From assembly GCA_029641185.1 (NCBI GenBank), contig JAPWGK010000004.1, positions 1,860,001 to 1,924,000 of the forward strand: 64,000 nucleotides of DNA, given 5' to 3'. Positions 2,877 through 28,671 of this stretch are shown here, piece by piece (within the stretch, counting starts at the first letter, position 1; the number at the start of each line of letters is the position of its first letter). Below the pieces are notes generated by a model. That model searched no databases, was not told the origin of the DNA, and saw only the letters and a list, made by a program, of their open reading frames with translations. The DNA is from Pseudofabraea citricarpa. Taxonomy: Eukaryota > Ascomycota > Leotiomycetes > Helotiales > Dermateaceae. Position numbers and translations under genes: made by a program.

Positions 2877-4070
2877 TCAGAGCCCGACCTGAAGCTTAGC
2901 CCAATTCGTAGCCTCGTCCCATTCCTTCCCATTCCCAAGGAGGCTCCCAGACAACTCCTCCACAAGTTTCTTTCCAGAGTAATTCGCCCACCAGATATCA
3001 CCCACCTGGTCGAGAAGAACACCCCAGTGCATGAAGATCAGAAGTGCCATAGAATTCCGCTTCCGTAATTGATTCATAAATTCCTCTCCAATCATGACTA
3101 GCCATGGTATACCCATCGTCTTATCCTCCATAAAACACTGGCCAAGGTGCCTGATGGCATGATCGTACACCTGATGCAAAGACTGGTTCTCAGTCGTGAC
3201 AGAGTCATTCAGAGCCAGCAGACGCTTCATCGGAGCTTCCATCCTGGAATCATAAGGGCTGGATTCTTTCTTGTCTTGTATGAGATGTTCAAAAGGGCCA
3301 CGCTCGAGCCATGGCCGGCTGATTTCGACAATCGTCGTGATACCTTTAATAAAGTCGAACAGGAGCGAGATACTTTCCGTCGGCGAAGTTTTGTGAGGGT
3401 CTGTATTAGGAATGAGAGGCGAGACAATGGTGCAAACCATTGTTAATATCGAAGCAGCGAAGATGGCATCACAATTTGAGGGCGTGATCTGGAGCAAAGC
3501 TGTCCGTAAAGCCGGTACCGCATTAGTCTGGTATTGTAGTGCTGTATTGATGTACGGTTCTGCGGACTTGGCATCACTCATCTCACTCGCTATGTGGAGA
3601 GCAGCGAGAGCAAGAATGGACTCCATGAGATATTCGTGCTTGAGTCCTTCCCGAACCACATAGCCTTGGAACACGTCCGAGATATTCGGCTTGAAGCCAC
3701 GATGGGTCGCCGTGCACCAACGATGCATCAGTTCTACATCTCTAACTCTCGACGCTGGTGAAAGAGGCACGTTACTGCAGGCACTCGCACTCGGTTTCGA
3801 CCGCATGCTGGCCTCGACAGAAGATTGCCCTGCACCGGAGACAGTTTTGGCTGATTCGGTTTGGGAAGAAACCGACGAAGGACTCTGGGAATCCGTATTG
3901 GGCACCAGTCGGCTCACCATCTGTGTGGCAGGGGTTGGGTATTCACATTTTGTCCCACGTGTGCCGCAATTGGTGCATGGCGGACCGATCTCATCACACT
4001 TCACACGTCTTTTCTTGCATTGCAGACAGCCATTCCGTGATTTCGTATGAGTCCGCCTTGGTGGTGCCAT
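2877..4070 (-). CDS. Zn2Cys6 transcription factor (Upc2-like architecture)
   Basis: Single-exon gene, 397 aa. The N-terminal binuclear zinc cluster is complete: Cys15, 18, 25, 32, 35 and 42 in CX2CX6CX6CX2CX6C spacing, after a basic start (MAPPRRTHTKSRNG). A Ser/Thr-rich linker runs to about residue 110. The rest is a helical ligand/activation domain containing VELMHRWCTATH, of the type found in fungal sterol-uptake-control (Upc2/Sut-like) factors. The ATG has basic residues directly ahead of the zinc cluster, which is usual. It is convergent with the melanin reductase and divergent from the NAD(P)-binding pseudogene. A role in controlling the adjacent reductase is possible but unproven. Confidence 0.88.
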   Translation of the reverse strand: MAPPRRTHTKSRNGCLQCKKRRVKCDEIGPPCTNCGTRGTKCEYPTPATQMVSRLVPNTDSQSPSSVSSQTESAKTVSGAGQSSVEASMRSKPSASACSNVPLSPASRVRDVELMHRWCTATHRGFKPNISDVFQGYVVREGLKHEYLMESILALAALHIASEMSDAKSAEPYINTALQYQTNAVPALRTALLQITPSNCDAIFAASILTMVCTIVSPLIPNTDPHKTSPTESISLLFDFIKGITTIVEISRPWLERGPFEHLIQDKKESSPYDSRMEAPMKRLLALNDSVTTENQSLHQVYDHAIRHLGQCFMEDKTMGIPWLVMIGEEFMNQLRKRNSMALLIFMHWGVLLDQVGDIWWANYSGKKLVEELSGSLLGNGKEWDEATNWAKLQVGL

Positions 4071-6510: not shown

Positions 6511-7880
6511 GGCTGAAAGGGGTTGCGAATGTGGATTGAATGTAATTGAGGATGTGATTGAGGGTCTGTAGTTGCGTAGGAAGAGGTGTGTGGAACTTGT
6601 GTTATTTCGTATGGAAGTGCTTGAAGGATGGAAGCGGTTGAAGGACAGAAGAAAGATGTTGGAAGTTGGAGGAATCTGGGGTTTAAATAATTGGGCAAGA
6701 AGCTAAACAAGCTAGGCGAGCTAGTTGATCAGTCCTTTCCATTGTGCCCATTTAAGACCATCAAGCTAAACAATAGGCTAAGCGAGCCGGTCAATCAGTC
6801 CTTTTCATAATGCCCATTGAAGCTAAACAATAGAAGTGTCACGAACAGTGTCAAAGAAAGGGCGAAGGTGAAAGCATGTCGATTGTTCTCAAGCCTTCGC
6901 TACTATCCCTTTGCTCGCCGGAGCGATATTTAGCTTAAACACGGTCTGCATAGATCAGAAAACCCCTTGATCCTAATATATTATTGGCTCTAATCCTTGG
7001 GACGCTAGATGTCGCACCCGTCGGCGAGCGAAAGGATAAGTACGTGACTATCTAGGGTCACGTGTTTTATGACATTAAGCGAGCTAGTTTGGTAGCCATT
7101 TTCATAATGCCCACTTATCGCTAAATTATACTACCAATGTTCCTGTACCACAGAAACAATTAGGTGGATTTGATTTTTCAATCATGTTATGCTCCTTAAT
7201 CTGCTAGAGCGAGAAAGCAACCACATAAATAAAGTCAATATTTATGTTAAGCGACACGATGATGCCTTCCTGCTCAAGAATAGTCAAGACTTCAAATCAT
7301 ACCATTGAATAAAGTTAACTGAATCTGTAAAACACAGAAAGTTGACCAGGGTATAGCCTAGGGAAAGACCAAATCCAGGAAAGCCTATGATGTGGTTTTG
7401 GAGGCACCGCGTCGATTTCTGCAATGATGGCCAAGATTCCTTGGTACTCTAAAACTTACTAGTGCCTTGAAATTTTGGTTCCATGGATCAATTATGAGCC
7501 TAGTGAATCTTGAATGAGTCACACGCCAATGAAGCACCAAATAAAAACGAGTTTTGTACGGAGTATGCGTTATAGAGTTACCAAACTTTCATGTGATTCT
7601 AAGGCATGAAATTAATTCATCTGAGTATTTCATCTGCCATCGTTTACAGTAGCTCTCTCAATTATAATGGTTCACTAGCGATCCCATAAACTATAAAGAA
7701 TTTAATGTTTTTTGTACTTTCAGAATGAAAAACGCAAAGTATTGTGATACACGGAAATCATGGTCAAGATTATCAACGACGGTTGATAATCCAGTCACCT
7801 CTAATTCAATCACAAAAGCTTTACCCCCTCCGCCCCCTTTCCCCCCTCAGAAAATTCTCATCTTCTCAGTATCGGCTCAT
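6511..7880. other. AT-rich intergenic region with dispersed repeats
   Basis: No convincing gene. It contains three diverged copies of a short repeat (listed separately) and long AT-rich runs between 7140 and 7740. Confidence 0.5.
6703..7126. repeat. Diverged direct repeat, three copies
   Basis: Copies at about 6703-6775, 6763-6835 and 7075-7126 share the order AAGC-GAGCTAGT, then CAGTCC or AGCC, TTTTCATAATGCCCA, then AGCTAAACAAT-like DNA. The first two are nearly tandem and the third lies about 240 bp away. Non-coding; origin unknown, possibly a remnant of a mobile element. Confidence 0.5.
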
Positions 7881-8863
7881 CTACGATGAAGTTTTCCAGC
7901 CCTGTGGAGGCTTGTGCTTGGCCTGGCGTCCCTTTGCCCAATTATGAATAGCGTCAAAATTTCGACATTGTTTTGTGACACCAAAGTTCGCATTGAACGC
8001 TTGCTTCTCCGTATTGTATTTCAGAGACATGACACTCACGTCTGCATGACAGAGAGCTGTTTGCCAGAGATACCCAAAACAATGATCGTCATGTGCCTGA
8101 TGTAGTCGTGCAGGTTCGTTATCATCGTTGAAAGTGCTATTATAGAAGCGGGTCCGCAGACGATTCTGATTTCCATGTCATTAGTAGTTATTCAGAGATG
8201 GTCTTATTGAAATTCTTACTAGGCAATGAAGTTGATGAAAGACTTCTAATATGCCAGCATAACCTTCCTCGCCGCCGTACAGGTGAGCGGTCGCGGCAGG
8301 CATACGTTTCATTTCTTCTTCCGTAATGGCAATAACACCGACATCCAGCAAAGATGACCATGCAGCATCTGTAGTGGGGCTAGATGGTCCAAAAACATCG
8401 GTGGCAGTGCCATCATTGATGTCCACTGAACTTTCGAAAGTACCTATAGTTCTTGTCAAAATCCCCAGTATTTTGAAAACAGGCATCTGGAAAAGACCCG
8501 AATCAGGAAGTTTGACTTACGATCTTCCCACACGATTGGAGGATGAAGAAGCTTATCTGCATTGTAACAATTAGCTCCGAATATCAATATATTCATCTGA
8601 AACTGTATCTTACCATCGAAACATTGCGGTTCTGATCTAGGATGATAATGGAATGTGGTAATCAAAATCATGATGAGGACTTGAAAGGTCACCAAGAGAC
8701 CCCATACCAGCATGTAAGATATCTTTCTTGACGGTGTTGTCCTAACTATGAGCTTTGGCACAAATGTACTTGTCTCGGAAATGCTACCGTCATCATCGAA
8801 GCTCTCCTCGGACTTCAATTTCGACCAGTGAACGGTCTCGCCGCCTACATTGGCCGAAGACAT
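7881..8863 (-). CDS. UstYa/DUF3328-family oxidase (RiPP maturation type)
   Basis: Four exons: 8863-8614, 8556-8521 (only 36 nt), 8443-8220 and 8165-7881; 264 aa. UstYa-family proteins are membrane-anchored oxidases that make the oxidative cross-links of fungal ribosomal cyclic peptides. A cytosolic N-terminus is followed by one membrane segment at about residues 51-71. Both family motifs are present: HQLHC at 165-169, split from the following NRLR by an intron, and HDDHC at 195-199. FDAIHNWAKGRQ lies near the end, as in the family. It is transcribed divergently from the repetitive precursor gene at 9803, with 0.94 kb between the two ATGs. A clear partner of that precursor by position and family; its product is unknown. 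Confidence 0.9.
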
Positions 8864-9802
8864 TTGAACCTGTCACTACAAAAAGAGAACAGTTTGTAGA
8901 AACCGCTTTTTCGGGGGTGATGATTGGAGGGAGGTTGAGATGCAATAAGAATTAGAGAAGACGGGGAGATGGAAGTAAGCCTTTTATTTCAGAAACAGGT
9001 TCGTGAATTTATATCAAGAGGTATAACTGATCCAGGAGCGCGAGCTGGAAATTTCTGGTTGCCTGGATGTAGGTGTCGTGCGCCCTTAGCAAGGATGTTG
9101 CTTATATGCATAGGCTACTCGTAAGAACTACTATCTGCATCCACTTTTGTGAGAAACTTTATATTCACGATATCTCGGTTAATGGAGGTTTCCAGGACAG
9201 GCTATCGGAACTTTGATATTTACTTACATAAGTGGACCTGGAACGATTACTTCCAAGACTTCTTTGAAGCGCTTCCACGTTAATGTCCCGCAAGTGCCCT
9301 GATACCTTTGTCTACATAGGCTATATGTAAATGCCACTTAATTATACGAGGGTTGTGGCTTGAATAGCCTACTTCGATGTTCTCTGTCCTTTGTCGTCTG
9401 CCTGAAATCTTTTTTTGCATAGCGAATTCACAGGTAGCATAGATTTATCTGCATAGGCTATTTGAAGTATGGAGACAACGCAGCAGAGGAAGTGTTATCA
9501 ACAGCAATTCATATTCTTGATTCGATGCTTGTTTAATCTGGCGCTTTCTGCCTCATCGCAAAGAGAGCATCTAGAACGTCTGACAGCGTGATAAGCAGGA
9601 TGTAAAGTGGAATAAATGGCGGGAACAGAATACACGCGAGAGTCTAGACTTAATGAATAAAGAGTATTTGAGCTATCGTATCTCAAGTATAAATCCTGCC
9701 TGTCCTCCTCCAACGAGATTTACAGAAACCACCAATCCACAGTATCATTCAATCCCACTACCATTACTACCTGCGCCATCAACCAAGTTCACTCAGCTCA
9801 TC
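8864..9802. promoter_or_regulatory. Shared divergent promoter of UstYa and RiPP precursor genes
   Basis: This region separates the two divergent genes. It contains CATAGGCTAC at 9109-9118, CATAGGCTAT at 9315-9324, CATAGGCTAT at 9452-9461 and an inverted GTAGGCTATT at 9363-9372. Such clustering suggests a binding site for a common regulator. A GATATAAATT on the minus strand (9006-9015) could serve the UstYa gene. Functional assignment is inference. Confidence 0.5.
9688..9694 (+). promoter_or_regulatory. TATA box of precursor gene
   Basis: TATAAAT stands about 115 bp upstream of the ATG at 9803, at a reasonable distance for a core promoter. No transcript data. Confidence 0.45.
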
Positions 9803-10315
9803 ATGCATTTCTCACGCATTGCACTGGCAGCAGCCACTTTGAATCTCGCTATCGGAGCCCCCGTCAAGGAGAAACGGTCTCGCGAGATCGTAGCAGCCGA
9901 GGCTGTGAGACGTTCAGTGGCCAACAACCCATATTTGTTTGAACGCACCGAGGCTAGCGCTGCCTACCAGTACACCGACACGCCATTCAAAGTCCGAAGC
10001 GTGGCCAACATGATCAAGCGCAGCGAGGCCAGCGCTGCCTATCAATATACGGACACTCCGTTCAAGCGCAGCGTTGAAAATCTGGGCAAACGAACCGAAG
10101 CCAGTGCTGCATATCAGTACACCGATACTCCTTTCAAGCGCAGTGTCGAGGATCTTGGGAAAAGAACTGAAGCTAGCGCTGCTTACCAGTACACGGATAC
10201 TCCCTTCAAACGTAGCGTTGAGGATCTTGGAAAGCGAACCGAGGCCAGTGCTGCCTACCAATACACAGATACTCCCTTCAAGCGCAGTGTCGAAGACCTC
10301 TCGAAGCTGGCTTAA
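9803..10315 (+). CDS. Putative dikaritin-type RiPP precursor with five repeats
   Basis: Intronless gene, 170 aa. MHFSRIALAAATLNLAIGA is a signal peptide. After residue 50 come five units, each with an identical 14-residue segment EASAAYQYTDTPFK; the unit starts at 9950, 10025, 10097, 10169 and 10241 (24-25 residues apart). Units are separated by spacers of the type RSVEDLGKR, giving dibasic KR (Kex2-type) sites on both sides. The first unit has KVR instead of KR after the core, and the last ends SKLA. Kexin cuts would release a peptide beginning T/S-E-A-S-A-A and containing two Tyr, the residue usually cross-linked by UstYa enzymes. The divergent UstYa gene supports a RiPP role. Alternatives are a repellent or pheromone-like peptide; no Cys occurs in the repeats. 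Confidence 0.85.
   Translation: MHFSRIALAAATLNLAIGAPVKEKRSREIVAAEAVRRSVANNPYLFERTEASAAYQYTDTPFKVRSVANMIKRSEASAAYQYTDTPFKRSVENLGKRTEASAAYQYTDTPFKRSVEDLGKRTEASAAYQYTDTPFKRSVEDLGKRTEASAAYQYTDTPFKRSVEDLSKLA
9950..10315 (+). repeat. In-gene tandem repeat of core plus spacer (72-75 bp)
   Basis: Five copies code for the same 14-residue core, but third codon positions differ freely between copies (for example TAC CAG TAC against TAT CAA TAT). The peptide is therefore held constant while the DNA has diverged, as expected for selected product peptides. Confidence 0.9.
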
Positions 10316-10624: not shown

Positions 10625-11371
10625 TTAAATGTGAAATTCTGGCCGTTGAATGCCCAAAATATCCAACAAATCCACCATTTGGCGAATGATAGGAACATGT
10701 TTTTCCAAAAGTACAAGTTCTGCCTCAGTAGCCTGCGAATCGTACAAAATGGATCGCAACCCAAGACTTGATGCGCCTTGAATATCCGTTTCAGGACTAT
10801 CACCAACCATATAAGCCTCGGAAGCCTTTACACCCAAGAAGCCGAGGGCAAGTTCAAATAGCTCGGGATTAGGTTTGGCAGTACCTGCTTCTTCCGAAGT
10901 ACATAAATAGTCAACGAGCGGTAGTACTCCAATCGCTTCCGCTTTGATATACTGATCTCGCTTCTGTCCATTAGAGATTATGGCGAGTTTGTAACCTGCT
11001 TCCTTCAGCCGGACGAGAGTCTCAATACTACCAGGAGTGGCTCTACGATTTGCTCTATATGCTTCCTTGTATGTCTCTTTGAAATGGGAAATTTCCTTCC
11101 GGTTAGGTTGAGGTAAACCAAGTTCTGCGAAGAAGAGGAGAACTTTTTGCACATCCTTCTCCTCATAGCTAATATTCCCTTTCAAGTACTTGTCGTATGC
11201 TTTTTGCAAGCAGTCATTATATACCCGGATGAGTTCTGTATTCAATCTTCCCGAAAAAGCCGGGTATTCTCTTTCTACTGCCTGGATACCACAACGCATT
11301 GAATGATAATGGTCGAATAACGTGTTATCAAGGTCAAAGAGCACAGTGCCTTTAACTTGGTGTGGATTCAT
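10625..11371 (-). CDS. HAD-superfamily hydrolase (YjjG-like)
   Basis: Intronless, 248 aa. Motif I is VLFDLDNTLFDHYH, with nucleophile Asp13 and general acid Asp15. Motif II is AIISNGQ near the middle, motif III the Lys in GTAKPNPELF, and motif IV the acidic GDSPETDIQGA. The helical cap between motifs I and II and the overall length fit the pyrimidine 5'-nucleotidase (YjjG)/haloacid dehalogenase branch of phosphatases. It is convergent with the RiPP precursor, 310 bp away. A housekeeping or detoxifying phosphatase role is likeliest; membership in the peptide cluster is possible but has no specific support. Confidence 0.88.
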   Translation of the reverse strand: MNPHQVKGTVLFDLDNTLFDHYHSMRCGIQAVEREYPAFSGRLNTELIRVYNDCLQKAYDKYLKGNISYEEKDVQKVLLFFAELGLPQPNRKEISHFKETYKEAYRANRRATPGSIETLVRLKEAGYKLAIISNGQKRDQYIKAEAIGVLPLVDYLCTSEEAGTAKPNPELFELALGFLGVKASEAYMVGDSPETDIQGASSLGLRSILYDSQATEAELVLLEKHVPIIRQMVDLLDILGIQRPEFHI

Positions 11372-12061: not shown

Positions 12062-13006
12062 CTACAAAGAATTGAAAACCGCTACATAATCAACCTCCAT
12101 CGCTACTTTTGGTCCGTCGATAGTGGCGTTATTAGGAGGACCGGGCCAGTTACCGCCAACAGCAAGGTTCAAGAGCAAGAAATGTCCCTCATGAGCCAAC
12201 TTCTCCCAAGCCGGCTTATCACCCACGGTAGCGCCCGTCACGTTGAACACCAGTTCTCCATCAAGGAACCAATCGAGTCTCTCATCTTCCCACGTGGCGT
12301 TCTTCCCGTATCCAGTCATACTTCGGTCAACCTCAAAAGCAATGGTATGAAAGACGCCCAACTCGAAATCGACACCGCCGTTACCGATTCCATTGTACTC
12401 GTTACAAGGTCCACCAGGTGCAACACCACAGTGGATCGTCGAGTACATAGTCGGAATGCCGTTTAGAACCTCCATAAAATCCCACTCACTAGCCGCGGGC
12501 CAGTTCGTATAGTTACCTCTGAAGCTCTCACCGAGGGCCCAAAACGCAGGCCAGATTCCCTGCTGGACTTCTCTCGGCTCATCGCCCAACTTGATGCGCG
12601 TCTCAATGTATAATTTCCCGCCTTCGACAGCGGCGAAATCAGTGCGTTGCGTCTCGATACGTGCCGACGTCCAGGTCCCGTTCTTGGATAAGCGAGGCGT
12701 GATGCGTAGGGTGTTTGCTTTGGTGATTTCGACATTCTCAGTCGATGCTGTATAGCTTTGGAATTCGTTGTTTCCCCATCGTGGTGCGCCGCCGGGATAC
12801 GAAGTGCCGGTACTGAAGATCCAGTTGTCGCTCGAAGGCAGGGTTCCGGCTTCCCCAGTAAAGGACTCGAATAATGTTGATGTATATCCGGCTTTGATAC
12901 CAGGGCTGATGCGACGTTGGAGATGATGGTGGGCATGTGAAGGATTGTGTGCTTGGATTGTAGTCGCCAAGGCGAGGACAAGAGAAGATGAGTATGTGTA
13001 CTTCAT
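12062..13006 (-). CDS. Secreted GH16 endo-beta-1,3(4)-glucanase-type hydrolase
   Basis: Intronless, 314 aa. Signal peptide at about 1-19, then a His-rich stretch and an RR pair (31-32) that could be a propeptide cut site. The catalytic signature EWDFME gives Glu174 (nucleophile), Asp176 and Glu179 (acid/base), the ExDxxE form of family 16. GIWPAFWALGE lies ahead of it, as in laminarinase-type enzymes, and a Trp-rich C-terminal beta region ends in VDYVAVFNSL. Likely acts outside the cell on beta-1,3 or mixed-linkage glucan of fungal or plant walls; exact substrate not resolved. Confidence 0.93.
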   Translation of the reverse strand: MKYTYSSSLVLALATTIQAHNPSHAHHHLQRRISPGIKAGYTSTLFESFTGEAGTLPSSDNWIFSTGTSYPGGAPRWGNNEFQSYTASTENVEITKANTLRITPRLSKNGTWTSARIETQRTDFAAVEGGKLYIETRIKLGDEPREVQQGIWPAFWALGESFRGNYTNWPAASEWDFMEVLNGIPTMYSTIHCGVAPGGPCNEYNGIGNGGVDFELGVFHTIAFEVDRSMTGYGKNATWEDERLDWFLDGELVFNVTGATVGDKPAWEKLAHEGHFLLLNLAVGGNWPGPPNNATIDGPKVAMEVDYVAVFNSL

Positions 13007-14182: not shown

Positions 14183-15956
14183 CTACCACCCTTCGATCTC
14201 CTGCAATCGGAGCGGCATCCCCTTATTGGGTTTTGATGTTATAGCTCCAGCTGGAATGGGGACATAGTTAGGATCCGCCATCTCCATCTGAAACTTCCCA
14301 CACCAGACCGCCAGAAGAGCTTTCAATTCCAACTTAGCAAACCTCTCGCCGATGCAACTTCTTGGTCCGTGCAAGAATGTCATAATGCTGTAGTTGCTTG
14401 CTACGCCACCAGTATTGTTTGCCCGACCAGTTTCGGCATCGATCCAGCGTTCTGGAAAGAATTCTTCCGCGTCTGGACCCCAGAGAGCCGGAGAGCGGTT
14501 TGTCGCCCATGGTGAGATGTAGACACGGGTCCCCTTTGGTACATGAGTTGATTGGATCACGGTATCACGGGTCGCTACTCGAAGTGTTACTGGAACTGGA
14601 GGGAATAGACGAGTGACCTCGCTGCACACTGCATTAAGATAAGGAAGTGACTCAAGAACAGCACCGAGGTCAAAATCTGCCGGTTGAGGGACCGAAGGTG
14701 ATGGTAGGTTAGACCGAATCTCTTGTCGTAGACGAGATTGCACCTCTGGATGTTTTGCAAGAAGATAACTACCCCACGTGAAAGCAGAAGAGGTTGTTTC
14801 GTGCCTAGTTGTGTCAGTAGGGCTAGAAGATATGGATTTGGCTGGCTTACCCTGCGGCAAGAAATGTTAAGAGCTGGTCCACAATCATATCGTCAGCAAA
14901 ATCGTTCGACTTTATTAACAGCGACAGAATGTCAACATTCTGCTCGTTTCGTGTTTTGATTAACTCTCTTTTGTCCCGAATTAACTGGCGACAGATGGTC
15001 CTCAAGTTACCAGTCGTTGTCATTAATCGTTGATTCAATTTCCAGGGCAATAATGAGACAATCCGTCGAGGCAGGAAGAGGTTAGTAGTGAAGAAAAGGG
15101 CCTTTTCGGTGCTTGGTTCCAAAATTTCCTCATAGTTCTTGATCAGTTCGTCGTCCGAGTTTGTCAAGGTCTTGAAATCACGCCCAAGCCCAGCAACACC
15201 AATTATGTCCATTGTAACTTTATTTGCCCAGTGGTTGACTTCCACCACACTCTGCGGTTGGAGTAAGGACTTTTCGGTGGAGGTTTCGGAGTTCTGGTTG
15301 ATTTCTGCTGCTACACCATTGCTGAGCTCAATGGCTTTCGAGTAGAAGATGGGCAAAAGTTCCTTAACATGGCGAAAGCTGAATGCCGGCGAGACATGTT
15401 TTCTTTGGAATTTATGCTCTTCACCCTCAACCAAAATCAATCCGTCGCCGAGGACGATGCGAAGGAACTTGCGAAGCTGCGTTGGCTTTTCATAATCGTA
15501 GCTCTTGTGCACAAGCACGTCGGCGAAGGATTTTGGGTCCGTCAGGAGGAGCCAGTCGGCATTAAAGAAACCCGAAAAGCAAATAATGCCATCATTGGGC
15601 ACATCTACCATCATCTTCAGAAATGCATTGCCAGCTGGTCTTTTAAAAACCACATCGGCATTTCCAAGGAGAGGCCATGCTTTCTGCAAAAATTAGCCCT
15701 TCATTATTTTGCCATTTCAGTGCTTTGCAAATAAACTTACCTTTGGTCGTGGAAGATGGCGACAAGGACTGAACCATACAGGGTATATAGAGATTATCCA
15801 GAACAACCACAACCCAAGTATAATGCTGTAAAATATAACGAAGAGCTTCGTAAGAGGCATGCCTGGGAAGACCTGTGGAAAAAATACAACATTGAGTAGA
15901 CATGAAGAAACTGACACCAGCGCCAGTAAAAATGGGGTTGGGATATCTGCTGGCAT
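14183..15956 (-). CDS. Cytochrome P450 monooxygenase
   Basis: Three exons: 15956-15741, 15683-14851 and 14804-14183; 556 aa. The ATG at 15956 has a good context (CACCATG); the open frame upstream has only a non-ATG start. Two hydrophobic N-terminal segments anchor it in the ER, followed by the Pro-rich hinge CRHLPRP. The I-helix AAGHETTSS spans intron 2 (residues 348-355). The K-helix ExxR is Glu412-Arg415, the PERW motif is near 467-470, and the haem loop FLHGPRSCIG has Cys500 as the iron ligand. All hallmarks are intact. The substrate is unknown. It lies about 4 kb from the RiPP precursor with HAD and GH16 genes between, so cluster membership is uncertain. Confidence 0.94.
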
Positions 15957-22623: not shown

Positions 22624-24388
22624 TCAAGCCTCTTCCGGAACGACTGCACCCCCGCTTGGGAACTCGGACGAGACCCCTGGCGCATCTGGCAAGCGAAGCA
22701 CAAATACAGCAACCGTAGTAATCATAAACAGCACAGCAGCGACCATAAAGGGCATGCCTATCCAAGCACCACCTAGCTCAAGGCCCTTCTTGAATGCCGA
22801 GGCTAGGAGTGGCCCAGCGAGGATCAGTCCAATAGTCTCGGCCATGGCTATAGTGTTGTACAACGTTCCCACAAAGTGCGGCTCGACGATTGAGGTGAGC
22901 AGACTTCGGATCACTTGTGGATATCCTCCACCCAACGAGAAGGAAACAAGACCTGGTTATTGTTAGCTTTAAATCTCCCATAAGTGCAACGTGTTGCATA
23001 CCCATTGTCAGTAGAGCTGGAGTGGCTGCAAAAGCAATCAAGATCGCTCCTATTGAGAGAAGAATGATACTCGTGCGAGCAAGCCATAGATCTTTGCGGA
23101 TGGCTGGAAAAGAGAGAGTCGTCACCAGAAAATAGCTGCATGCGGGTAAGACGACGAGGAGAAGGACGAGAGTGCTAAATGCACGAAGTGAGAGAAGATA
23201 TGCTGCCTACAAGCGAATTAGTTAGATTGATCATCGGGGTAAGCGAGACATACCTTGGACCACGTCCAGCCGTATCTCTTAGTTGCATACTGCAGCAGCA
23301 TCTCCTGGATAAATCTGCCAAATGTCGTGAGGAGAAACGTGAACAACAGGATCATGACGATATTGTTGCCCCAGATGAAATGAGCCGCATTCTTGAGGTT
23401 AGACAGCGGAGATCCGGTCAGGTGTTCTCGCGAAGACACGGGATCCCGTTCTTCCACGTCGTCGTTTACAACGACGGCTTCTGGGACGACTTCTAAAATG
23501 CGCAGACCCAGCGTTTCGGGCATGAGAGCAACCACTATGCCACAAGATGCCATAGTGACGAGTCCCATCGAAATAGATAGCCAGGGGTCGATTTCCATCA
23601 GGATTGCGCTCAATGGACTGGCGAGCATCTCGCCGACGAGGATTGAAGCGCCGAGGCGGAAGAAAACAGTCGCTCTATTTGACAATTAATTTTCTCTTCA
23701 ATGAAGGACATCTTTCAGTATTTACCGTTCCGCATCAGGTACCACATCGGCTACCATCACATATATCATCGAGGTGAAGACAACGCCGCCACCGCCAATG
23801 AAGCAAAAGAGAGACGCGAACAAGACCATCCAGATTGGAAATATGTTTGGGAACAAGCCTGAAATGCTTAGCTCTAGACTGGGAGCAACTGGCAGACCAG
23901 CTCTACTTACAAACAATGCTGTTAAAACAACAGCTGACGACAATTCCAACAAGCGACAGGGCCAGGACGAATTTGCGTCCATACTTATCAGCCACAATGC
24001 CGTACGGAATCGAGGTTAGCAAACCTTAATTTCTGGTCAGCTACCGAGTTGATAAGCGATCCGTTTACCACCTACTGGGTAGACAATCGAAGGTATAGGA
24101 CCAGCCCCGAATAAAAGCCAATTTGCCTTGCACCTCAGTGCTCTTGCATCGCGCGTCATCCGGCACAAGCGCCTCATCCTGGTACATCTCGTGACATATT
24201 ATATCTTCCATCACCTTGTTCAGCGGCGCTATCTGCAGATAGGCCCCGATCTCGAGCAGGACAATCAGGATCAAGCAGAGCGTGACAATGTGGCGGCGCA
24301 TCAGTTTCTGCCAAGATGATATGACGGTCTTGGAGGGGCCGCTCTGGGCCAGCAGAGGCGACTGCTCATCTTGGATATCGTGCGCCAT
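22624..24388 (-). CDS. Major facilitator superfamily transporter
   Basis: Six exons: 24388-24076, 24024-23911, 23858-23726, 23674-23254, 23206-23002, 22952-22624; 504 aa, with introns of 47-52 nt. The hydrophobic pattern fits 12 transmembrane helices. The loop after helix 2, IPYGIVADKYGRK, matches the MFS signature GxxxDxxGRR. The acidic stretch between helices 6 and 7 (VVNDDVEERDPVSSREH) is the usual central loop. It belongs to the fungal efflux/solute MFS group also found beside metabolic clusters. The substrate is unknown. Its neighbour on the same strand is the second HxxHC membrane protein. Confidence 0.92.
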
Positions 24389-26174: not shown

Positions 26175-28671
26175 ATGGATTCCGTGCCTCTGGCTACTAA
26201 TCTTACCCGTTGGCGCCTAACCAGCGACCTTGGTGTTCATCATTGGCGTTATTTGGACGAGCGAGAAGCGCGCGAATCCGAGCAGAGCGACCTAGAGCGA
26301 TACCTTCTAGGCCTTCCGTTGAGCTTAAATGTATGCTTCAGCAGCTTAATCAAATCTAGGTCTCGGAAACTATTGAACTAATACACAGATAGGACGATGA
26401 GAGACTTCAACTCGAACCAGATCTGCATTCCAAAGTACCCGCACGCGCTTTTGCTGATGCTGCCCGAGATGGCTTCAAATTCTACACTCGGCTTCAGCTA
26501 TCTGAGGGGCACTGGGCTTGCGACTACGGTGGGCCTAGCTTCTTGCTCCCGGGTCTTGTATTTGCAATGTATATCACCGATACCCCAATTCCAGACGAAT
26601 GGAAACTTGAGATGTCGCGGTATCTTGCCAATCACGTCAATGTGGATGGTGGCTGGGGTCTGCATCTAGAGGGGAAGTCGACAGTTTTTGCGACCGGCCT
26701 ATACTATGTGATGCTTCGACTCCTAGGCATAAGTCGAAAGCATCCACTAGCAAGCAAGGCACAAGAGTGCCTCCTCTCTCTCGGTGGGTTCTTCTCTCCT
26801 GTCTAAAACTCACTTTTGACAAGACATCTAGGTGGAGCAACAGGGATCCCTCAATGGGGTAAGATATGGCTCTCCTGCCTCAATCTTTACAGCTGGGAGG
26901 GTGTGAATTGCATCCCAGTCGACCTCTGGTTCGTTGCAGACAAGTCGCGAAAGTTGGCTGTCAACCTGCTAATTACCATATAGGCTTCTCCCAGCTTGGT
27001 TGCCATTCCACCCATCTCGTTGGTGGGTACAGTGTCGTGTTGTATATCTTCCAACATCATACCTATGGTCAAATCGCTGCACTAAACCTCTGACTCCATT
27101 ACTTGCTGAGATACGAGAAGAGATATATACTCAGCCATTCGAGAAGATCAACTTTGCAGGATGTCGCAACAGCACTGCTAAGTCCGATAGTAGACGCTCC
27201 GTATCATCGCTACTCCTATATTTCTTCTCCATTTTTACCATTTGGTGTAACCTCCTACGGCCTCGATGGTTACTCCGCCGTGCCAACCTCAGAGTATCCC
27301 AGCTAATGCGGATGGAAGAACGCAACACCAACTATGAATGCCTTGCCCCGGTTAATAAAGCTTTTCATATGGCAACCGCTTGGTTCGAGGATGGTCCAGA
27401 TTCCGAAAGAGTACGGCTACATCGCGAGAAGGTCGACGTATATCTCTGGATGGGCCCCAAAGGCATGACGAGCAACGGCACAAGCGGAGCTCAAGTCTGG
27501 GATACCGCATTCAGTATTCAAGCTGCCATAGAGGCAGGCTTCTCGGAGGATCCTACATTCAGAAGGATCTTGAATAAAGCTCATGGTTTCCTTGAGAAGT
27601 CCCAGTTCAAAGATGACTTGCATGACCCCTTTCGCCAGCCTCGCAAGGGAGGTTGGCCTTTTAGCACAAAAAGTAACGGCTACATCGTGTCCGATTGCGC
27701 AGCAGAGAGCTTGAAAGCGGTTCTTATGCTCCAGAAGGAATGGTAAATTTCAGGGTTCTGCATCTTCCAAAAAGTCATACTAATCCGACACAGCTCGTAT
27801 CCTCAACTAGTTAATGAATCCCTGCTCAAGGACTGTGTGGATACATTGCTAATAATGCAGAACTCCGACGGAGGCTTTGCAAGCTATGAGAAGATCCGAG
27901 GTAGCGAGTATCTCGAGTTGCTGAATCCAGCCGAAGTCTTCGACCGTATCATGGTAGAATACTCGTACCCTGAGTGCACAACGGCAGTACTAACAGCGCT
28001 ATCCTTGTTCCGCCGCCACTTTCCTGACTACCGTGCCCATGAAATCCACCAAACAGTCCTAAGAGCTTCCAGATTTATTGGCAAAAGTCAGAGGGAAGAC
28101 GGTAGTTGGTATGGAGCTTGGGCCATCTGCTTCACATACGCTACTTTCTTTGCCTTGCAAAGCCTCGAGGCCATTGGCGAGCAATTCAAAGACAGTAGAA
28201 GGGTTAGAAAAGCATGCGATTTCCTCCTAAGCAAACAGAAGGAAGATGGCGGATGGGGAGAGCATCACTCGTCGTGTGATGAAAAGAGGTATATCCAGCA
28301 TGAGAAGAGCCAGGTCGTCAATACTTCTTGGGCTGTTCTGGCACTGATGCATGCTGGCTATCCGGACCCTACTCCTATCCAGAGGGGACTTGAGGTACGA
28401 ATCCACTCAATATATTTGGGAGCTATCCTGACTCGGTAATAGTTGATTCAAAGCCGACAACAATTGAATGGCGAATGGCTGCAAGAAGCAGTCGAAGGTG
28501 TTTTCAATCAAACTTGGTCAGTTGCCGACCCTCTATAACAATTCTAAGAACACACTGGTTAACTTGACCTGGCATAGTATGATCGGCTACCCAAACTACA
28601 AGTTTTATTTTCCTGTCATGGCTCTAGGTGCATATAACAGGATGTATCTCCCCAAACTCAACATGACATAG
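26175..28671 (+). CDS. Oxidosqualene cyclase (triterpene/lanosterol synthase family)
   Basis: Seven exons: 26175-26330, 26393-26783, 26832-26928, 26984-27742, 27794-28394, 28443-28516, 28578-28671; 723 aa, close to fungal Erg7 length. The family cyclises 2,3-oxidosqualene at the ER membrane. Recognisable parts are TRWRL at the start, [10 protein letters not shown], the QW-type [69 protein letters not shown] and the terminal YPNYKFYFP. The catalytic Asp452 lies in DCAAE, where nearly all family members have DCTAE. The apparent stops and frame jumps between open frames are all explained by introns. The altered motif and gene-poor, metabolite-rich surroundings suggest a secondary triterpene synthase rather than the sterol enzyme. 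Confidence 0.9.

Follow-up and report, generated by a model that had tools for sequence, protein, structure and literature searches.

A divergent repeat-precursor and UstYa gene pair in Pseudofabraea citricarpa that reads as a minimal asperipin-like dikaritin locus

A 64,000-nt stretch of the Pseudofabraea citricarpa genome (contig JAPWGK010000004.1, positions 1,860,001 to 1,924,000; hereafter "the window") carries a precursor gene with five tyrosine-containing core repeats, positioned head-to-head with a gene for a UstYa-family (DUF3328) oxidase. By analogy with known pathways, the pair reads as a minimal asperipin-like dikaritin locus without a tyrosinase. This is proposed because a profile search finds no UstYa match in the window other than this one gene, and because none of the genome's 28 exon-level tyrosinase matches falls on the window's contig (C34 in our numbering). 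The probability that the pair makes a UstYa-oxidised peptide is put at about 0.68. An earlier note on this DNA had placed such a locus at 7881..10315, in agreement with the gene pair read here, and had taken a Kex2-repeat precursor next to a UstYa gene as the mark of dikaritin biosynthesis. That pairing is the accepted hallmark of the class, and it is real at this locus.

The gene pair and its shared promoter

The two start codons lie 940 nt apart and the genes are transcribed divergently. The features of the pair are as follows.

7881..8863, minus strand: UstYa-family (DUF3328) oxidase gene (four-exon model, PF11807 match, motifs)
8864..9802, no strand: divergent promoter region, 939 bp, with three repeated elements and TATAAA at 9688
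9803..10315, plus strand: precursor gene, 170 aa, intronless as read (signal-like start, leader, five core repeats)
9803..9856, plus strand: signal-peptide-like N-terminus MHFSRIALAAATLNLAIG, judged by eye and by alignment with relatives
9857..9946, plus strand: leader, roughly APxxExxSRxIVAxxAVRRxxxNNPY, conserved in relatives
9947..9988, plus strand: core copy 1, TEASAAYQYTDTPF, between ER and KVR
10022..10063, plus strand: core copy 2, SEASAAYQYTDTPF
10064..10093, plus strand: linker KRSVENLGKR
10094..10135, plus strand: core copy 3, TEASAAYQYTDTPF
10136-10165 and 10208-10237, plus strand: linkers KRSVEDLGKR
10166..10207, plus strand: core copy 4, TEASAAYQYTDTPF
10238..10279, plus strand: core copy 5, TEASAAYQYTDTPF
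10280-10312, plus strand: tail KRSVEDLSKLA

The open reading frame (ORF) listed for the precursor begins at an in-frame ATG at 9653. The ATG at 9803 is the preferred start because of the TATAAA at 9688 and the signal-like sequence that follows: the resulting 170-residue protein starts MHFSRIALAAATLNLAIGAP. The secreted precursor described in the earlier note is thus borne out as far as a signal-like start, recognised by eye and alignment, goes. The note's five identical 14-residue cores between dibasic sites need amendment on two counts. First, all five repeats are present and have EASAAYQYTDTPF in common, but the full 14-mer is TEASAAYQYTDTPF in four of them and SEASAAYQYTDTPF in copy 2. Second, four cores have KR at either end, whereas copy 1 is preceded by ...FER and followed by KVR. 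Because these flanks are not dibasic, copy 1 is probably not cleanly freed by Kex2.

Comparison of the codons of copies 2 to 5, summed over the six pairs, reveals where the repeats are held constant. There are 24 synonymous and 0 non-synonymous differences in YQYTDTPF, 18 synonymous and 4 non-synonymous in the six residues ahead of it, and 32 synonymous and 12 non-synonymous in the nine linker residues. The silent sites have diverged between copies; of the repeat, YQYTDTPF is the part held most tightly. The precursor has the repeat architecture set out by Umemura (at least three tandem repeats of at least eight residues between Kex2 sites). By a simpler Kex2-repeat criterion, it is the only one picked out among 455 window ORFs of at least 60 aa, whereas 20 mononucleotide-shuffled windows, with 6028 ORFs, gave none. 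The genome contains no credible second copy of the precursor, the sole other match having an E value of 2.92.

The UstYa gene is read as exons 8863-8614, 8556-8521, 8443-8220 and 8165-7881 on the minus strand, separated by introns of 57, 77 and 54 nt with GT...AG borders; the splicing is our own gene model, made without transcript evidence, and gives an uninterrupted frame of 264 aa. Residues 43-250 match Pfam UstYa PF11807 at 148.2 bits (cut-off 25). Both HxxHC motifs are present, as had been claimed, with HQLHC at residue 165 and HDDHC at residue 195. Across 30 aligned sequences, H165, H168, C169, H195 and C199 are invariant and H198 is conserved in at least 90%. An AlphaFold model of moderate confidence (mean predicted local distance difference test score, 72) has one predicted membrane-type helix at residues 46-73, and both motifs sit on two long helices of the domain that follows it. 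A Foldseek search of the model against solved structures gave no match at E 0.001 or better, and the last exon gave no credible match to solved structures; the best solved-structure match of the UstYa alignment, a haemagglutinin chain at E 0.0079, is taken as chance. Among 317 scored candidates, the relatives of the protein include sequences from Boeremia (63% over 67% of the query), Bimuria (62% over 51%), Venturia, Ramalina and others.

The promoter region contains three same-direction copies of a 23-nt TTATCTGCATAGGCTAT-like element (9102-9124, 9308-9330 and 9445-9467), the second and third being 74% and 78% identical to the first. The GCATAGGCTA sequence is no commoner in the genome than its reversed control (37 versus 39 sites), and two of the 37 sites are found here only 343 bp apart; by our arithmetic, ~0.01 such pairs would be expected. 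The three elements are consistent with co-regulation of the two genes, as a hint rather than as proof. A fourth ATAGGCTA lies at 6773. As for the proximity of the genes, ~0.2-0.3% of randomly placed gene starts would have one of 25-30 UstYa genes within 2 kb, where the number of UstYa genes in this genome is an estimate from 46 exon-level matches.

The precursor family and the start of the mature peptide

The earlier note had proposed searching the core against known precursor families. The precursor is no orphan: five relatives were found by protein search, and 15 in total, all with YxYxxxP cores, after a profile search that scored the 7996 candidates sharing most words. They belong to the lichen fungus Lepraria finkii, to Beauveria bassiana, to Zarea fungicola, and to proteins lacking organism names. 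Another protein, P0006, was a low-complexity chance match (E 1.2) and was removed before any count. Scanned against Pfam, the precursor, five relatives and P0006 gave only matches under the curated cut-offs; PF26925, a precomputed label on relatives P0001 and P0002, is absent from the Pfam copy used. Viral and bacterial/archaeal collections had no occurrence of the pair's relatives. The view that the core is undescribed agrees with a literature text search, which did not find it named; figures and the supplementary lists of two surveys of Kex2-processed repeat proteins (KEPs) were outside the reach of that search, and the Beauveria relative may already stand under a type number in the KEP lists of Le Marquer 2019 or Umemura 2020.

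The 16 precursors, including that of the window, contain 48 Y-x-Y-x-x-x-P cores, with at least one in each. Tyr1, Tyr3 and Pro7 were demanded by the search pattern; at the positions left free, Asp5 occurs in 46 of the 48 cores and Thr6 likewise in 46 (Ser in the other two), while positions 2 and 4 are variable. Degenerate units of P0039, P0040 and P0041 (YRYGSPDPG, YQYGSPEPE, YGCGENPDP and YKYGSPTPD) fall outside the pattern and were left uncounted. Outside the cores, SVEDL is found in 15 of the 16 precursors (SVENL in P0044), and NNPY in the leaders of 11. Ten NNPY relatives have a decayed TPxxxRS(V/L) at the place of copy 1, where the window has an intact copy; judging from the sequences, copy 1 may be a remnant of an older layout.

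Where does the mature peptide begin? The number of residues from the last Arg to Tyr1 is 0 in 24 cores, 2 in five, 4 in three and 6 in 16, and is never odd. In the 19 extended cores of the relatives, the extension always consists of X-A or X-P dipeptides, in 11 distinct strings (for example, NPAP, SP, DP, SALP, NAAAKA, NAVANA and SAAAQA). Permuting residues within the strings gives a product of chances of ~10^-6.4 for this pattern, a value uncorrected for kinship. Dipeptides of this kind are the mark of Ste13 in alpha-pheromones (PMC9769878; PMC6339444; papers given here by PMC number are cited for particular passages). Given extensions of even length and the dipeptides of the relatives, Tyr1 is probably the mature N-terminus and YQYTDTPF the peptide. 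The earlier note had pointed to peptides containing AAYQYTDTPF; as the mature backbone, the trimming pattern of the relatives makes this the less likely of the two. The candidates differ in mass, with [M+H]+ of 1032.43 for YQYTDTPF minus 2 H and 1174.51 for AAYQYTDTPF minus 2 H. The corresponding linear forms would lie at 1034.447 and 1176.521, and YQYTDTPF minus 4 H at 1030.415. In a sub-group of relatives (P0003, P0005, P0043, P0044 and P0045, Lepraria finkii included), long X-A extensions replace the KR sites.

The proposed pathway and its rivals

In the proposed pathway, the precursor would enter the secretory pathway, and Kex2 cleavage after KR would release cores 2-5 and the SVEDLG linkers. 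Kex1 would strip the C-terminal KR. Trimming of the even-length extension by a dipeptidyl aminopeptidase would leave Tyr first, as the relatives suggest. One Kex2-type gene and two DPPIV-type loci are matched at exon level in the genome. The UstYa protein, as a dicopper oxidase, would form an ether from a Tyr phenol oxygen to a C-beta between positions 1 and 3 (i, i+2) with loss of 2 H, a step modelled on characterised UstYa enzymes; cross-linking could come before or after the Kex2 cut. Rings of the i, i+2 type occur in ustiloxin and phomopsin, and the Tyr1-Tyr3 spacing suits them.

Several published observations fit this pathway. In the characterised dikaritins, UstYa proteins install an ether at Tyr. 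Phomopsin has a 13-membered Tyr-Ile ring (PMC6514808). UstY enzymes are dicopper oxidases that make the Tyr-O to Phe-C-beta bond of asperipin-2a (PMC12186524). Asperipin-2a, with the core FYYTGY, is made by a four-gene cluster for which the passage cited lists one UstYa homologue and no tyrosinase (PMC6514808). Counts of DUF3328 genes peak right beside the repeat-precursor gene, and Tyr is present in 65.6% of such repeats (Umemura 2020, PMC7329392).

There are also points that weigh against the proposed pathway. First, the window's own extensions, TEASAA and SEASAA, fit the dipeptide pattern in length and in the last dipeptide (AA) only; trimming at this locus would perhaps be partial, or be done by another peptidase. 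Second, 14 of the 48 cores are preceded by one basic residue, not by KR or RR. These are copy 1 of the window, two cores of P0001, and all 11 cores of P0003, P0005, P0043, P0044 and P0045, and the endoprotease acting on them may be one other than Kex2. Third, the Ste13-like signature of the relatives is typical of linear alpha-pheromones (PMC9769878; PMC6339444), and the passage of PMC6339444 on ustiloxins and phomopsins does not predict Ste13 for either group. Fourth, no named taxon is shared between the UstYa relatives and the precursor relatives, so the two sets do not support co-inheritance of the pair. Fifth, UstYa proteins also hydroxylate and chlorinate (PMC12048977) or desaturate (PMC10512285). 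Since such other oxidations are known, the ring is not certain; the Tyr1-Tyr3 ring itself is given slightly less than an even chance.

The rival nearest to the proposed pathway lies within the reading of an oxidised product: UstYa may desaturate, hydroxylate or otherwise oxidise the core without closing a Tyr1-Tyr3 ring. This has perhaps one chance in four. UstYa homologues install the dehydroamino acids of phomopsin (PMC10512285) and hydroxylate or chlorinate in cyclochlorotine (PMC12048977), but the constant Y-x-Y in the cores of all 16 precursors suits a Tyr-Tyr cross-link, and the window has a single UstYa gene.

It is unlikely, to a slightly greater degree, that the precursor yields an unmodified linear signal of pheromone or hormone type and that UstYa acts on something else. 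Such a signal would account for a family and a leader conserved across distant Ascomycota, for a precursor that is single-copy in this genome, for the separate taxa of the two sets of relatives, and for X-A/X-P trimming as in alpha-pheromones (PMC9769878). A conserved peptide found in genomes lacking a neighbouring UstYa gene is what the earlier note had said would speak against its proposal; the conserved-peptide half of this holds, with the 15 relatives. Against a linear signal stand the two Tyr at constant spacing in every counted core and a head-to-head arrangement 940 nt apart, set against the small random expectation given above. The core also lacks the Trp, Cys and Gly-Gln of known alpha-pheromones. 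Furthermore, almost all alpha-factor or pheromone genes covered by the cited part of Umemura 2020 (PMC7329392) are without UstYa neighbours, with three exceptions.

Chance adjacency, with the precursor served by another modifying enzyme elsewhere in the genome, is improbable: UstYa genes are common (46 exon-level matches, and seven or more further repeat precursors in the vicinity of such genes), but the adjacency here is divergent with three repeated promoter elements, and there is no credible second precursor copy. Two further identities were considered and set aside. The peptide was rejected as the mating pheromone of P. citricarpa, having a core unlike the known ones and a UstYa neighbour, and as a cell-wall repellent such as Rep1, in which the repeat type differs. 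Pheromone-type cores have the pattern WC...GQ..C; a search of the genome for the corresponding DNA pattern gave two places, versus one for the reversed control, and neither lies in a convincing precursor.

What would the proposed pathway mean if correct? First, a true ring would enlarge a known class of fungal cyclic peptides by a new product; five reported dikaritins stand against at least 838 repeat-precursor types (PMC10512285, 2022). If the family is linear instead, it is a conserved fungal signalling peptide with a role to be found. Second, an exact mass can be calculated for YQYTDTPF and searched for, and relatives are easy to recognise by the Tyr-x-Tyr-x-Asp-Thr-Pro motif. Third, a proposed order of evolution puts linear peptides, mating factors among them, ahead of cyclic toxins (Umemura 2020, PMC7329392); a family that has a pheromone-type trimming signature and, in this genome, a UstYa gene beside it is a concrete test case for that idea. 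More speculatively, a conserved lineage spanning lichen-forming and insect-pathogenic Ascomycota could combine pheromone-style maturation, in which Kex2 cleavage is followed by removal of successive dipeptides until Tyr comes first, with a UstYa ring at the invariant Tyr-x-Tyr. Such a cyclic signalling peptide would bridge linear pheromones and cyclic dikaritins; this is a long shot, at perhaps one in five.

Neighbouring genes, similar pairs and known systems

Pfam scans of the neighbourhood covered 30 selected ORFs or proteins and gave the following features.

848-1372: short-chain dehydrogenase match, distant from the pair
2877-4070: Zn2Cys6 transcription-factor gene, ~3.8 kb beyond the UstYa gene
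10625-11371: HAD hydrolase
12062-13006: gene with a sub-threshold SKN1/KRE6 match
14186-15692: P450 exons
23221-23685: sub-threshold MFS match, distant from the pair

The Zn2Cys6 gene is a possible regulator of the pair. None of the neighbours (Zn2Cys6, HAD hydrolase, SKN1/KRE6-like, P450) is diagnostic, and no transporter or isoflavone-reductase-like gene was found adjoining the pair among the 30 scanned. A larger cluster reaching out to the P450 exons was considered and rejected, as the HAD hydrolase and the SKN1/KRE6-like gene intervene. Further away, a squalene-hopene-cyclase-like gene occupies 26973-28436 (C-terminal domain match, 121.9 bits).

Exon-level UstYa matches number 46 across the genome, that of the window included. 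Twenty further UstYa stretches were fetched, some of which share a cluster. Eight were flagged for a repeat precursor and seven accepted (L011, L015, L018, L020, L024, L027 and L030); L029 was flagged and then rejected. The cores of the first six are unlike one another: ALYSYIVAD, GYDQRALYVDDD, QGIQGLHNYVTLKVKG, GLFTSLESIWNSYGYDE, EFPFPTYAGVE and DWIYPPPDRK. In L030 (C42:1060000-1069900), a precursor of ~14 ESVEDYVIP(F/I)D units lies close to UstYa genes, with a tyrosinase match (C42:1074557) ~10 kb from it. Its YVIPID/YVIPFD repeats are what we take to be a phomopsin-type core. L030 thus looks like a phomopsin-type cluster, a known-looking case recovered by the same approach and in that sense a positive control. 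Separately, two UstYa matches of equal score and equal profile range (C18:5604-5849, plus strand, and C18:54258-54503, minus strand) lie ~49 kb apart and are perhaps a duplicated segment.

Given these seven of 20 stretches, and a UstYa gene within 15 genes of 1758 of 7878 repeat precursors (Umemura 2020, PMC7329392), the pairing of a precursor with UstYa is ordinary; what is new is the core family and its trimming pattern. A Ste13-like signature beside UstYa is also not wholly unprecedented, since UstYa neighbours are noted for 17 of the 76 homologues of putative Basidiomycota pheromones (Umemura 2020, PMC7329392). Nine dikaritin clusters are described in Venturia inaequalis (PMC9632046), and UstYa genes and RiPP (ribosomally synthesised and post-translationally modified peptide) clusters in Beauveria bassiana (PMC12142624); the passages cited have no bearing on the window core.

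How does the locus compare with known systems? It has the gene features expected of a dikaritin locus, a signal-like precursor with multiple cores between Kex2 sites and an adjacent UstYa gene with both HxxHC motifs. The precursor also falls under Umemura's published repeat criterion for KEPs (Le Marquer 2019; Umemura 2020). Alpha-pheromone precursors share the signal-like start and the repeats at basic sites, and the X-A/X-P dipeptides with the relatives of the window's precursor; the window differs from them in a core without Trp or Cys, in its UstYa neighbour, and in dipeptides that fit only in part. Ustiloxin and phomopsin loci share a Kex2-repeat precursor with a signal-like start, UstYa genes and a core Tyr. 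In contrast to them, the window core is without YxIx (the motif as given in PMC7329392), the contig has no tyrosinase match, and there is one UstYa gene rather than several. The closest parallel is the asperipin-2a pathway of Aspergillus flavus (aprA/aprY/aprT/aprR), which includes a transporter and an isoflavone-reductase-like gene, neither of them found beside the window pair in the scan described above. The cores differ (FYYTGY versus YQYTDTPF) except for aromatic residues at positions 1 and 3 in both. Like the locus described here, the asperipin-2a pathway has a Kex2-repeat precursor, one UstYa gene and no tyrosinase.

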